This document shows, one piece after another, positions 4,673 through 54,412 of a stretch of 64,000 nucleotides of DNA (its first letter is position 1; every line of letters starts with the position of its first letter). The stretch comes from Marinomonas rhizomae (GTDB lineage Bacteria; Pseudomonadota; Gammaproteobacteria; Pseudomonadales; Marinomonadaceae), in assembly GCF_003315485.1 (NCBI RefSeq), contig NZ_QNSE01000012.1, forward strand, positions 1 through 64,000, in the 5' to 3' direction. Below the pieces are notes generated by a model. That model was not told where the DNA came from. It saw only the letters and a list, made by a program, of their open reading frames with translations, and made no database searches. The translations under genes and the position numbers were made by a program.

Positions 4673-4749
4673 TGGTGCACCCGAGAGGATTCGAACCTCT
4701 GACCGCTCGGTTCGTAGCCGAGTACTCTATCCAGCTGAGCTACGGGTGC
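4673..4749 (-). tRNA. tRNA-Arg (ACG), copy 1
   Basis: A full 77-nt cloverleaf with encoded CCA. The anticodon arm is CTCGG-CTACGAA-CCGAG (anticodon ACG), the T arm carries GGTTCGAATCC, and acceptor GCACCCG pairs with CGGGTGC. It is the distal copy of three identical genes, each 137 nt apart. Confidence 0.98.
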
Positions 4750-4809
4750 ATAGCAAAATATTCACAACCACATTTTAAATAGGATAGTTTTAAAATGTTT
4801 TTTTTGGAA

Positions 4810-4886
4810 TGGTGCACCCGAGAGGATTCGAACCTCTGACCGCTCGGTTCGTAGCCGAGTACTCTATCCAGCTGAGCTACGGGTGC
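4810..4886 (-). tRNA. tRNA-Arg (ACG), copy 2
   Basis: Identical in sequence to the copies on either side. The 60-nt spacer to copy 1 is identical to the spacer between copies 2 and 3, which points to recent tandem duplication of a 137-bp unit. Confidence 0.98.
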
Positions 4887-4946
4887 ATAGCAAAATATTC
4901 ACAACCACATTTTAAATAGGATAGTTTTAAAATGTTTTTTTTGGAA

Positions 4947-5023
4947 TGGTGCACCCGAGAGGATTCGAACCTCTGACCGCTCGGTTCGTAGCCGAGTACT
5001 CTATCCAGCTGAGCTACGGGTGC
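4947..5023 (-). tRNA. tRNA-Arg (ACG), copy 3
   Basis: The promoter-proximal copy of the three, 61 nt downstream of tRNA-Ser. It has the same 77-nt cloverleaf and anticodon ACG, which reads CGU/CGC/CGA once the wobble A is deaminated to inosine by TadA. Confidence 0.98.
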
Positions 5024-5084
5024 ACAATGACAATTCCAATCTTTTTTCAATTAGAGGGGATAGACTCTAAAAGACAACTTGAAA

Positions 5085-5174
5085 TGGCGGAGAGTGAGGG
5101 ATTCGAACCCTCGATGAGTGTTAACCCATACACCCTTAGCAGGGGCGCGCCTTCAGCCACTCGGCCAACTCTCC
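5085..5174 (-). tRNA. tRNA-Ser (GCU)
   Basis: A 90-nt class II tRNA with a long variable arm and encoded CCA. Acceptor GGAGAGT pairs with ACTCTCC, and the anticodon loop CTGCTAA gives anticodon GCU (AGC/AGU codons). It is the first gene of the tRNA-Ser/tRNA-Arg transcript and lies 58 nt below csrA, an arrangement common in gammaproteobacteria. Confidence 0.97.
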
Positions 5175-5232: not shown

Positions 5233-5421
5233 TTAATCTTCAGAAATTTGATCGTCTTGCTCTTTCTGAATACGAAGGTAAATCTCTTCACGGTGAACAG
5301 AGACATCTTTAGGCGCATTGATACCAATACGAACTTGATTTCCTTTCACACCTAACACAGTGACAGAAACTTCGTCACCAACCATTAAAGTTTCACCGAC
5401 TCGACGAGTAAGAATAAGCAT
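5233..5421 (-). CDS. csrA: Carbon storage regulator CsrA (RsmA)
   Basis: A small dimeric RNA-binding protein that recognises GGA motifs, usually near ribosome binding sites, and represses or stabilises target mRNAs. The 62-aa protein begins [10 protein letters not shown], contains [11 protein letters not shown] and ends in VSVHREEIY plus an acidic tail. The conserved Leu4 and Arg44 region used for RNA binding is intact. It lies downstream of alaS-lysC as in related bacteria. Its own Shine-Dalgarno is embedded in a CsrA-like site, suggesting autoregulation. A probable CsrA-sequestering RNA is encoded at about 19.5-19.8 kb. Confidence 0.98.
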
Positions 5422-5461: not shown

Positions 5462-5492
5462 GAATTGCCCGACAGTCAGTGTAGGGCAATTC
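5462..5492 (-). terminator. Hairpin between lysC and csrA
   Basis: A perfect 9-bp stem (GAATTGCCC/GGGCAATTC) with a 13-nt loop lies 73 nt after the lysC stop and about 40 nt before the csrA start. No U-tract follows on either strand, so it may be a weak terminator, a processing site or part of the csrA leader rather than an intrinsic terminator. Confidence 0.4.
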
Positions 5493-5564
5493 CTACAAAA
5501 TCAATTGTAGCCTCTCAACAAAAATTAAACTACGTATAACTAAAGGATTTTATGTATCCAATTG

Positions 5565-19082: not shown

Positions 19083-19406
19083 ATGGCTTTCATCGTTACC
19101 GATAACTGCATTCGCTGCAAATACACTGACTGTGTCGAAGTTTGTCCTGTTGACTGCTTCTATGAAGGCCCTAATTTTTTGGCTATCAACCCTGATGAGT
19201 GTATAGACTGCGCATTGTGCGAACCAGAATGTCCAGCCAATGCCATCTTCTCTGAAGACGAATTGCCTGAAGATCAAGAAGTATTTGTCGAACTGAACAG
19301 AGACTTATCTCTGATCTGGCCAAATATCGCTGAGAAAAAAGATGCTCTTTCCGATGCTACGCAATGGGATGGTGTTGAAGATAAATTAGAGCACTTAGAA
19401 CGCTAA
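19083..19406 (+). CDS. fdxA: 7Fe ferredoxin FdxA
   Basis: A small electron carrier with one [3Fe-4S] and one [4Fe-4S] cluster, like Azotobacter FdI. Cysteines at 9, 12, 17, 21 and 25 and at 40, 43, 46 and 50 give the two cluster motifs. The 107-aa length and the C-terminal extension ([10 protein letters not shown]) fit the family. A strong AAGGAG lies 7 nt before the ATG. It follows mutS by 130 nt. In Pseudomonas fdxA adjoins rsmZ, and a matching RNA is found just downstream here. Confidence 0.96.
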
Positions 19407-19435: not shown

Positions 19436-19463
19436 AAAAAGCGACTTAATTGTCGCTTTTTTT
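19436..19463 (+). terminator. fdxA terminator
   Basis: A 10-bp stem AAAAAGCGAC/GTCGCTTTTT with loop TTAATT and a T-tract of seven, 30 nt after the fdxA stop. Confidence 0.9.
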
Positions 19464-19511: not shown

Positions 19512-19538
19512 AAAAAAAAGGGCGCCTATTGGCAACCC
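19512..19538 (-). terminator. Terminator of the RsmZ-like RNA
   Basis: The minus strand reads GGGTTGCC, loop AATA, GGCGCCC, then eight T. The stem has one G-U pair and one bulged U. It ends the GGA-rich RNA. Confidence 0.85.
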
Positions 19539-19763
19539 TACTTTTTGCTCACATCCTGTTAAGCGACTCTTCCGATGAGTAAACATCACTGTTTGCTCCA
19601 TCCTGAAGCATCCAAACTATCCTTTCGCATGGTGCATTCCATCAAACCACGTTATTCCTTTGAACAATCCATTGCTCTCGAACATCCGGTTCAATCCTCA
19701 ACACCCTCAATGGTATTTCATTAAGCACCTCATGCGCTTTTCATCCATGAATTCCGTTTGGAT
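19512..19763 (-). ncRNA. rsmZ: RsmZ/CsrB-type CsrA-sequestering small RNA
   Basis: The minus-strand transcript of about 250 nt contains 13 GGA motifs. Several sit in hairpin loops: GAAC-CGGAT-GTTC, CAA-TGGA-TTG, GCTTC-AGGATG-GAGC, ACTC-ATCGGAA-GAGT, and an AGGAT loop just before the terminator. It ends in a rho-independent terminator with eight U residues and has no plausible ORF. RNAs of this build titrate CsrA away from mRNA. In Pseudomonas rsmZ lies beside fdxA after mutS, the same place as here. The GGA count and length are closer to CsrB than to the roughly 120-nt Pseudomonas RsmZ. The 5' end is inferred from the promoter and uncertain by about 10 nt. Confidence 0.87.
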
Positions 19764-19770
19764 AAGACAC

Positions 19771-19798
19771 AATTTACCAGCTAAAAAATATATATCAA
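19771..19798 (-). promoter_or_regulatory. Putative promoter of the RsmZ-like RNA
   Basis: -35 TTGATA (19793-19798), 16-nt spacer, -10 TAAATT (19771-19776) on the minus strand, placing the start near 19763, just before the first GGA motif. Other A/T-rich hexamers nearby could also serve. Confidence 0.5.
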
Positions 19799-19911
19799 CT
19801 TTTCAAAAAAAAACCAAAAATAAAAATTTTCTTATAAATCAAAAAGATAAAAACCTACTACAGAATAGAATGACATTTAGCCACATAACAAACGGGAAAC
19901 ACCTACAGGCA

Positions 19912-19929
19912 TGTAAGAAAAGGACTACA
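19912..19929 (-). promoter_or_regulatory. GacA/UvrY-like upstream activating site
   Basis: The 18-nt imperfect palindrome TGTAAG-N6-ACTACA matches the GacA site TGTAAG-N6-CTTACA at 10 of 12 positions. Its centre lies about 157 nt upstream of the inferred RNA start, near the distance known for rsmY/rsmZ in Pseudomonas. Confidence 0.6.
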
Positions 19930-19961
19930 AAGACTCAAGATTTATTGAAAACACACTCTCA

Positions 19962-21182
19962 TCACACCATAACAAGAAACTCATCAGCCCACCTAATCGC
20001 ATCTAAATAGGTTTTTTTCAGATCATCTAAATCTTGAGAGTTCTTTATGGCTTGACCATTACCATAATGCTCGACTAGATCAAGCGTATTACCTACTCTT
20101 CCTGATCGATGCACTATCGCATTAATAAATTCATTGGGTAAAGGCAACTCTCCGAGCACTTCGCCTAGCTTCATTCCGGTGCAGACATCAATCATTGATA
20201 ACATCCCGGCTAAAAAGTATTTATCTTGATTGTTATAGCCTCGACGATGAGCAAACAATTCCGCATGTTTCGCACGAACCATAATTTGCTCCAGTAATAC
20301 ATGTCTATCACCAATCATTTCAGACATTAACAATAAATTAGTTAATGATTTAAGCTTTTCCACACCGATCAGCATGATAGCTAAGCGAACAGAATCTACC
20401 GAGGCGACTAAACCAGTAATAGGAGAGTTTAAGTAACGTAATAATTTATGAACAAGACCAGCATCTTGGCTGACTATCCGCTCCAATTCATCAATACTTA
20501 AAACAGAGGTATTTAACAGCGAGGACATTAGCTGAAGCAATGTCATACTGTTTACTTTAGATGCCTTACTGGTCACCATCTCAGGCTTTTCAAAAAAGTA
20601 TCCCTGAAAATATTCGATGCCTAACAAACGACAAAATTGGTAGTCTTCCCATGTTTCAACTTTTTCAGCAATAATCTTGACGTTAAAGCCTCTAAGCGCT
20701 TCAAATTGTTTATGAAAATCATCATGACCTAAAGCCAATATATCTAATTTGATGTAGTCTGCCAGCTCAATAAAAGGGGTCAACTTACTACTGAATACAA
20801 AATCGTCTAATGCAATAGAGCAGCCAGCGTTTACCCAGCGACGCAAAGACGACAGTAAGACCGCATCAAAACCGGAATCCTCCAACACCTCAATCACAAT
20901 ATTTTCTTTGTTGATAGGCATGCCACTTGGGCTCAGCAAATAGGCACGAGGAAAATTAATAAATGCCTTGCTTGTTCCAACAAGGTTTTCCATACCTAAT
21001 TCAAAAAGACTAGCAGCAATGACCTGAGCCGTTGCACCAACTTCATCAATGACATTGGCCTGTGTCGCAAGCGCATTATTGCGATAAAGGAGCTCATACC
21101 CCATTACAGCAAGGCGGCTATCCACAATTGGCTGTCTTGCCAATGCAACATTAGAGTGAGCTGATAGTGAATTTTCGGCCAT
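19962..21182 (-). CDS. EAL-like plus HDOD signalling protein (YuxH type)
   Basis: An N-terminal EAL-like domain (about residues 10-190) is followed by an HDOD domain (about 195-400). The EAL signature is changed to GYELLYRN, although IALDDF, YIKLDIL, IIAEKVET and YFQGYFFEKP are recognisable. This is the usual state of the YuxH family, where c-di-GMP hydrolysis is doubtful and binding or protein contact is more likely. HDOD lacks the HD catalytic pair and acts as a protein-interaction module. ATG at 21182 is used (406 aa, GGAA 6 nt upstream); a TTG 15 nt earlier is less likely. Its start is divergent from ilvD, and the RsmZ-like RNA lies beyond its stop on the same strand. Confidence 0.88.
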   Translation of the reverse strand: MAENSLSAHSNVALARQPIVDSRLAVMGYELLYRNNALATQANVIDEVGATAQVIAASLFELGMENLVGTSKAFINFPRAYLLSPSGMPINKENIVIEVLEDSGFDAVLLSSLRRWVNAGCSIALDDFVFSSKLTPFIELADYIKLDILALGHDDFHKQFEALRGFNVKIIAEKVETWEDYQFCRLLGIEYFQGYFFEKPEMVTSKASKVNSMTLLQLMSSLLNTSVLSIDELERIVSQDAGLVHKLLRYLNSPITGLVASVDSVRLAIMLIGVEKLKSLTNLLLMSEMIGDRHVLLEQIMVRAKHAELFAHRRGYNNQDKYFLAGMLSMIDVCTGMKLGEVLGELPLPNEFINAIVHRSGRVGNTLDLVEHYGNGQAIKNSQDLDDLKKTYLDAIRWADEFLVMV

Positions 21183-21342
21183 ATCGTTTCCGTTCAATAA
21201 AAGTATCAGTATTCATTCATACAGTGTCTCAATATTGCCTAAAAATTGCCATTGGGCATAGACAATAATCTTGGTAACATGGAGCCATTACATGTAGACA
21301 ACTATATAAAACAAGATAAAGCAAAAATCTGTGGGGAAAATA

Positions 21343-53659: not shown

Positions 53660-54412
53660 CTACTCTGCCGAGGTTGAATCTTCAGTTTCGCGAATAAACT
53701 CTTCTAACAGCAACTGCTGTTCCTTGTCCAACTCAAGGTTCTGCAGAAGGTCTGGCCGGCGCTGAAAAGTTCTTCCGAGCTTTTGCTTTAAACGCCAGCG
53801 TCTAATCTCCTCGTGGTTGCCACTAAGCAGCACTGATGGCACAAGTTCACCATTTAGCACTTCTGGGCGAGTATAATGCGGGCAGTCCAACAAACCATCA
53901 GAGAATGAATCTTCATCCGCAGACGCCTGCTTTCCCAATACCCCTGGAACCATACGAAATACAGCATCCATGAGCACCATTGCCGGCAACTCACCACCGC
54001 TTAGGACAAAGTCGCCAATTGACCATTCTTCATCAATCTCAGATTGAATCAAACGCTCATCAACGCCTTCATAACGACCTGCTACCAGAATAAATTCTGC
54101 TTGTTTAGCAAGCTGTTGCACGCCTTCTTGCGTTAGCGTACGCCCTTGAGGGGATAGATAAATAACTTTTGCATTGGGCACCGATAACTTGGCACTCGCA
54201 ATAGCATCTTTGAGAGGCTGAACTTTCATCAGCATCCCTGGACCACCACCATAAGGTCGATCATCTACAGTCTTATGCTTGTCATGTGTAAAGTCTCGGG
54301 GATTAACATAATCCACCTCAACTAACCCAGACTTAATGGCTCTGCCTGTTACTCCATACTGGGTAATGGCCTGAAACATCTCCGGAAAGAGCGATATAAC
54401 GCTAACCTTCAC
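53660..54412 (-). CDS. trmD: tRNA (guanine-37-N1)-methyltransferase TrmD
   Basis: A SPOUT methyltransferase making m1G37 in tRNAs that read CNN-type codons, preventing frameshifts. [32 protein letters not shown] and [17 protein letters not shown] (trefoil knot) are signatures. The 250-aa protein starts at GTG. It lies 22 nt after rimM in the conserved operon. Confidence 0.97.

Follow-up and report, generated by a model that had tools for sequence, protein, structure and literature searches.

In Escherichia coli, the csrB promoter carries an 18-nt inverted repeat centred at -183/-182 with an extra TGTAGGAGA 5 bp past it, an IHF site lies between this repeat and the promoter, and full UvrY binding requires IHF (available portion of PMC4682653). 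Within the genus studied here, the accessible text on Marinomonas mediterranea MMB-1 places CsrB at 755,847-756,302 and CsrC at 3,922,203-3,922,857 and reports that, in mutants of ppoS and of ppoR, both of these highly expressed RNAs drop and csrA1 increases (PMC8523701). The same text describes control of CRISPR-Cas expression and phage resistance by the PpoS/PpoR cascade, the part of the RNAs in this control being inferred there (PMC8523701). A search of the open-licence literature on Marinomonas CsrB or RsmZ returned nothing besides this paper. One of the genomes compared here, G010, carries fdxA at 756,305-756,625 and matches to the covariance model described below at 756,048-756,279 and 3,922,436-3,922,690; because these coordinates match the published CsrB and CsrC, we take G010 to be MMB-1. 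Since MMB-1 CsrB sits just before this fdxA, an fdxA-adjacent RNA, the counterpart of the one described here and with a PpoS- and PpoR-dependent transcript, is already published in one species (PMC8523701). The RNA class and its M. mediterranea counterpart are thus already known; newer are the arrangement of the switch and the recurrent copying of the gene within the genus.

The window, by which we mean the whole 64,000-nucleotide stretch of Marinomonas rhizomae DNA that was analysed, contains a minus-strand locus next to fdxA (Table 1) that we are confident is the gene of a small RNA activated by GacA (PpoR/UvrY) and sequestering CsrA. The RNA is conserved and has a covarying fold, its promoter elements and synteny are conserved, and the genome carries CsrA and a GacA candidate; we infer CsrA binding, IHF binding and function in this strain. 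A CsrB/RsmZ-like RNA had been suggested here in the first-pass annotation, and the GGA density, the covarying GGA hairpins, the terminator and the GacA box all uphold that assignment; the published, expression-tested counterpart in M. mediterranea is not mentioned there. A main CsrA switch of this genome would thereby be located, at a place missed by gene-based annotation and by the Rfam gathering score alike.

Table 1 Features of the RNA locus, of its neighbourhood and of csrA in the window, with related loci in other genomes.
Feature	Position or locus	Strand	Description
csrA, presumed target protein of the RNA	5236..5421	minus	PF02599, 89.7 bits
Predicted GacA box upstream of csrA	5480..5497	minus	TGTCGG half-site 23 bp past box start
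fdxA, ferredoxin	19083..19406	plus	Pfam Fer4 and DUF3470
Terminator hairpin between fdxA and RNA	19436..19461	minus (as listed by scan)	A-run on one side, T-run on the other
Small RNA, very probably of the CsrB/RsmZ class	19512..19763	minus	~252 nt, 13 GGA motifs
Intrinsic terminator	19512..19538	minus	hairpin 19538-19520 and T-run 19519-19512 (eight T)
Hairpin GCUUAACAGGAUGUGAGC	19547..19564	minus	ACAGGAUGU in loop; helix 10, double changes at 3/6 pairs
Hairpin ACUC-AUCGGAA-GAGU	19566..19580	minus	loop GGA; helix 9, 100% of cells paired, zero double changes
Hairpin GAGCAAUGGAUUGUUC	19662..19677	minus	loop GGA invariant; helix 5, double changes at 3/4 pairs
Hairpin GAAC-CGGAUG-UUC	19680..19692	minus	loop GGA; helix 4, double changes at 3/5 pairs
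5' hairpin UUCA-UGGA-UGAA, candidate CsrA site	19740..19751	minus	kept in alignments; absent from predicted consensus fold
-10 box TAAATT	19771..19776	minus	-35-like TTGATA at 19798-19793, 16-nt spacer
IHF-like site TATCTTTTTGATT	19837..19849	minus	8/9 to consensus
Third half-site TGTGGC, weaker	19880..19885	minus	+44
Second half-site TGTAGG	19902..19907	minus	22 bp past box start
Putative GacA/UvrY box TGTAGTCCTTTTCTTACA	19912..19929	minus	10/12 to GacA consensus on RNA strand
ORF, 116 aa, TTG start, mechanical call	19660-20010	plus	overlaps RNA
EAL-HDOD protein gene, upstream neighbour	19962..21197	minus (RNA strand)	start codon mechanical
Tandem-copy loci beside fdxA (seven Marinomonas genomes)	L088, L089, L090, L093, L094, L095, L096		

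The 5' end of the RNA (~19763) was placed from the position of the -10 box. The count of 13 GGA motifs in about 250 nt of minus strand given in the first-pass annotation is correct (first letters spanning 19755 to 19556), and this is the densest such stretch on both strands of the window at 5-nt steps, the runner-up 250 nt holding nine; composition-matched shuffles of 252 nt contained 6.4 GGA on average and at least 13 in 31 of 10,000 cases. Against dinucleotide-shuffled versions of itself the 252-nt stretch also forms the better fold (z -3.0, 0 of 200), and GGA letters are more often unpaired than the RNA overall (unpaired probability ~0.59 as the mean of 13 values, versus 0.35). Several GGA motifs do lie in hairpin loops, as had been claimed, but not all of them, one being nearly fully paired (unpaired value 0.02). 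The mechanically called plus-strand frame, or another frame, could encode a short protein; in relatives, however, alignment gaps of one nucleotide (150 of 228) and two nucleotides (67 of 228) dominate, for which reason coding is unlikely, and base pairs covary, so that a protein is the least credible of the readings considered here.

The consensus fold comprises 57 pairs, 17 of which show two-sided changes that preserve pairing. None of 500 shuffles reached any of five covariation measures, a comparison that kinship among the rows can inflate, and structures slid along the alignment, a control that preserves relatedness, gave 2-10 such pairs. GGA lies in the loop of several hairpins that covary or are fully kept, and the GGA columns in the loop of helix 5 are invariant in 22 rows; one other hairpin keeps its stem while GGA becomes TGA in many rows. 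Some GGA motifs have been lost in relatives. The terminator that had been called clear is present in the sequence, and across 22 species 96.3% of the cells of its helix (helix 11) are paired; a simple terminator scan of the sequence did not pick it up. The hairpin between the RNA and fdxA may terminate transcription in both directions, since an A-run and a T-run flank its opposite sides.

A covariance model was built from 22 of the RNAs, the row of the window RNA included, and sequences used in building it match by construction; the window scores 283 bits (19512-19764). The model matches all 48 genomes of the genus at E 0.1 and 47 of them at E 3e-11 or better, fdxA is likewise present in 48 of 48, and the best match adjoins fdxA on the same contig in 42. 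The exceptions are G010 and G021, where a distant CsrC copy outscores the one beside fdxA (only 17.3 bits in G021); G012, G019 and G060, where the best copy and fdxA are on different contigs; and G029. Contigs end less than 0.8 kb from fdxA on the RNA side in G012, G019, G058 and G060. The genome scan used stricter filters, under which the copies of G029 were missed: it returned only a weak match elsewhere (0.083), and a direct search of the fdxA locus gave 35.7 and 26.4 bits. Loci with species names, M. polaris, M. arctica, M. foliarum, M. pontica and M. ushuaiensis among them, carry the RNA in 13 of 13 cases (139-299 bits). When this genome was searched for a second sponge with the covariance model, under these stricter filters, and with M. 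mediterranea CsrC DNA, only the fdxA copy was convincing, and the other model match (C24, 15.9 bits) looks like chance; a divergent RsmY-like RNA might pass unnoticed under such filters. The plasmid records searched held nothing similar to the RNA.

The TGTAAG-N6-ACTACA palindrome of the first-pass annotation is found upstream of the RNA, centred at about -157. As evidence by itself a GacA box was rejected, because the window has 28 such sites against 29.1 expected by chance, and the genome has 153 with up to two mismatches against 151 for the reversed pattern; the box is meaningful because it is conserved, not because it is rare. Our sample held 54 boxes in 47 intergenic regions, which are related rows and not 54 independent events. 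The best box reached at least 10 of 12 consensus positions in 35 of the 47 regions (reversed pattern, 1 of 47; shuffles, 21 of 470 or 4.5%) and at least 9 of 12 in 45 (reversed, 11 of 47; shuffles, 34%), and the distance from box to first GGA of the RNA was 173-184 nt in 51 of 54.

A second TGTA-like half-site (TGTA, TGTC, TGTG, AGTA, CGTA or GGTA) follows every one of the 54 boxes, which were chosen without using this feature: it begins at +22 in 45 and at +23 in nine, and is exactly TGTA in 47. A third, less exact half-site occurs at +44 or +45 in 36 boxes, and the next most frequent offset within 18-63 is found in 15. Since 22 bp is about two helical turns, the half-sites would face the same side of the DNA. 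As a plain pattern with up to two mismatches the array occurs five times in the window against 4.7 expected, its sole exact match being 19904-19929. The presence of the extra half-site at all 54 RNA-gene boxes makes cooperative GacA binding directly testable; beyond a one-line note on E. coli csrB, phased GacA half-sites did not come up in the open-licence literature searched, of which PMC2375449, PMC4353343, PMC7911923 and PMC8523701 were consulted. Another site with this 22-bp half-site, TGTAGGA-N4-GCYTACAAGATTGTA, is present in six genomes (G004, G008, G009, G024, G032, G064), at places distant from csrA and from the RNA (L165, L166, L175, L191, G004 (C3) and G009 (C1:2259965)).

The promoter suggested earlier is supported by its -10 box, for which 29 of the 54 promoter copies have TAAATT and another 10 have TACATT (39 together), whereas a plain match is no better than chance (TTGATA-16-TAAATT, 3 sites versus 4.2 expected). 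Scored against the IHF consensus YAANNNNTTGATW, 41 of the 54 copies reach 8 or 9 of 9, versus 16% of shuffles, and in 48 the distance between box start and best site is 78-81 nt. The upstream DNA is A+T-rich, with a mean of 74% over 120 nt versus 57% for the window.

The presumed target, csrA, is encoded 14 kb from the presumed sponge in the same window and was found in 47 of the 48 genus genomes; this genome has three CsrA genes, two of them outside the window (G000:C15:15171-15323 and 53824-53979). Thirty csrA loci were fetched, of which 29 had a readable promoter (L232 did not), and in 28 of these 29 the csrA start codon is preceded by a GacA box at -68 to -82, the best site of the remaining one being at -55. 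A second half-site is visible by inspection in most csrA promoters, which suggests a phased operator at csrA too. Downstream of csrA are tRNA genes, and the preceding frame is one that we take to encode aspartokinase. This setting is that described for M. mediterranea csrA1 in the accessible text of PMC8523701. Just downstream of csrA (window 4676-5174), three equal-scoring tRNA genes stand in near-identical repeats of ~137 bp, plus one further tRNA. The genome likely encodes a GacA/UvrY regulator, judging from a 213-aa candidate that scores 252 bits, below the formal NCBIfam cut-off of 280, and lies beside a frame that we read as uvrC.

We propose that the phosphorylated response regulator would bind the box and the phased half-sites (about -166 to -117), and that IHF would bend the A+T-rich DNA at about -80, bringing it to the sigma-70 promoter. 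An RNA of ~252 nt would then be transcribed and stop at its own terminator before fdxA, and its GGA hairpins would bind several CsrA dimers, freeing CsrA-repressed mRNAs. By analogy with M. mediterranea, the same regulator may also act on csrA through the box upstream of that gene, in this case as a repressor.

Copy number varies within the genus. Of the 47 intergenic regions, 7 contain the whole set of box, GGA cluster and terminator twice over (G003, G005, G014, G016, G029, G059, G065); G060 has two successive model matches on a contig without fdxA, and in G012 two contigs carry one match each. A tree was computed from 56 copies, with L062 excluded. It joins both G065 copies as sisters (100/99) and does the same for G029 (94/88), whereas for the genome pairs G003/G059 and G014/G016 it groups first copy with first copy and second with second, which suggests more than one duplication; the number is only indicated, because 17 of 53 inner branches have support under 80. 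Four genomes (G004, G009, G013, G032; loci L064, L069, L072, L073) have an extra GGA-rich module past an intact-looking first terminator, which would end at the fdxA-side hairpin. Outside Marinomonas, two of the four loci of family f209 (L196 and L199) carry two GacA-box-led, GGA-rich antisense RNAs less than 1 kb from fdxA. At L206, a second GGA cluster was seen by eye.

Two other readings were weighed. In the first, the RNA would be under GacA control but work chiefly by pairing with mRNAs, its GGA motifs being incidental; such an RNA would equally have a sigma-70-like promoter and a terminator, as any small RNA does; but the extreme GGA density, the placement of GGA in loops of covarying hairpins and the gain and loss of GGA-rich modules between species are sponge-like, and we give this reading only a slight chance. 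Slighter still is the chance that the locus is no independent gene, the stretch belonging instead to the untranslated portion of the EAL-HDOD transcript or forming a tail antisense to fdxA. It does sit between these two genes and on the EAL-HDOD strand, but it has its own conserved -10, GacA array and terminator, the RNA ends more than 100 nt short of fdxA with a terminator hairpin in between, every tandem copy has its own box and terminator, and at two loci of family f21 the upstream neighbour is, by eye, a sigma-factor gene.

We regard as evenly balanced the wider proposal that GacA/UvrY in this lineage uses, in place of a single palindrome, an operator built as an array of helically phased half-sites (0, 22-23 and often 44-45 bp), several regulator dimers sitting on one DNA face, that the same kind of array activates the sponge and represses csrA, and that the sponge evolves by repeated tandem duplication and by modules added after decayed or leaky terminators, dose and capacity being tuned per species. 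What deserves further work is the phased operator, together with the repeated duplication of the gene.

The first-pass annotation had further placed the RNA at the locus orthologous to rsmZ and asked for a search with Rfam models. At the gathering score Rfam finds only four tRNAs in the window, for which reason membership of an Rfam family was rejected. The PrrB_RsmZ model (RF00166) does match the 3' part of the RNA (19512-19649 only), but at 27.0 bits, below its gathering score of 44, and on 20 related loci (19 at fdxA and one CsrC) its best score was 36.9 bits, none reaching the gathering score. Models of CsrB (RF00018), CsrC (RF00084) and RsmY (RF00195) likewise gave nothing at gathering score in the window, RsmY reaching 14.4 bits. 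Over 369 genomes of the class, RF00166 matched 13, one above the cut-off (G054); tblastn with FdxA, EAL-HDOD and the last 400 aa of MutS as queries gave no match closer than 1.5 kb to any of the 13, and the search was uninformative about synteny. In G054, fdxA is on another contig than the match, and the frame beside this match is presumably rpoS.

Position gives a different result from the Rfam scores. The window has the order mutS-fdxA-RNA, with the RNA antisense to fdxA and the GacA box at its far end, which is the rsmZ position. Of 132 genomes outside the genus that have fdxA, 65 supplied order-level loci, namely the 25 best matches and 40 of the other 107 taken in list order, not at random, and 1 kb downstream of fdxA was examined in each (698 bases in one). 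Antisense GGA clusters accompanied by a GacA box lie within 1 kb of fdxA at 12 of these 65 loci, in six families, against 1 of 65 for the sense control; the order by no means shares this arrangement throughout, because 53 of 65 loci lack such an RNA by the same rule. A mutS match is present at all 25 loci having both flanks, which cover 5 of the 12 RNA-bearing loci, the remaining 7 comprising the downstream side of fdxA only. At the f21 loci L193 and L204 the order is rpoS-like frame, box, RNA, fdxA, mutS, the upstream frame being one that we recognise as rpoS, a sigma-factor gene. The box of L204, TGTAAGCATTCGCTTACA, is one letter off the Pseudomonas fluorescens rsmZ site given in the available part of PMC4353343. 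The +22/+23 half-site is clear at 11 of 14 boxes from the twelve non-genus loci, missing from both f24 boxes and partial at one f209 box. Orthology to rsmZ, as originally claimed, is thus supported because position and promoter agree, although the Rfam RsmZ model falls short; the claim of twice the RsmZ length also agrees with 252 nt versus the 133 positions of RF00166.

Compared with known systems, the locus shares with RsmZ/PrrB of Pseudomonas the neighbours fdxA and mutS (available part of PMC4353343) and with the f21 loci an RNA that has a GacA box and runs antisense to fdxA, whereas the Pseudomonas RNA is half as long and the upstream neighbour here is an EAL-HDOD gene. M. mediterranea CsrB is likewise beside fdxA and is described with GacA box, GGA motifs and terminator (accessible text of PMC8523701), but is far apart in sequence (33 bits to the window-RNA model). 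M. mediterranea CsrC is nearer in sequence (104 bits), with a 5' sequence similar to that of the window RNA, but is located elsewhere in the genome, is ~470 nt long and continues, past a terminator hairpin with no T-run, into a second module; among the other genomes of the 48 in the genus, G021 alone has a full-length CsrC match. Position therefore points to CsrB and sequence to CsrC, and the tree does not decide between them. The layout of E. coli csrB is the same, with a far-upstream repeat, an extra motif in the phase of the window's second half-site and an IHF site (available portion of PMC4682653), although its box is centred further upstream than that of the window and the CsrB model stays below gathering score here. 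The tandem pair rsmX-1/rsmX-2 of Pseudomonas brassicacearum differs in being rsmX, of 110 nt, but is likewise a GacA-driven sponge duplicated in tandem, its own box included (accessible part of PMC7911923).
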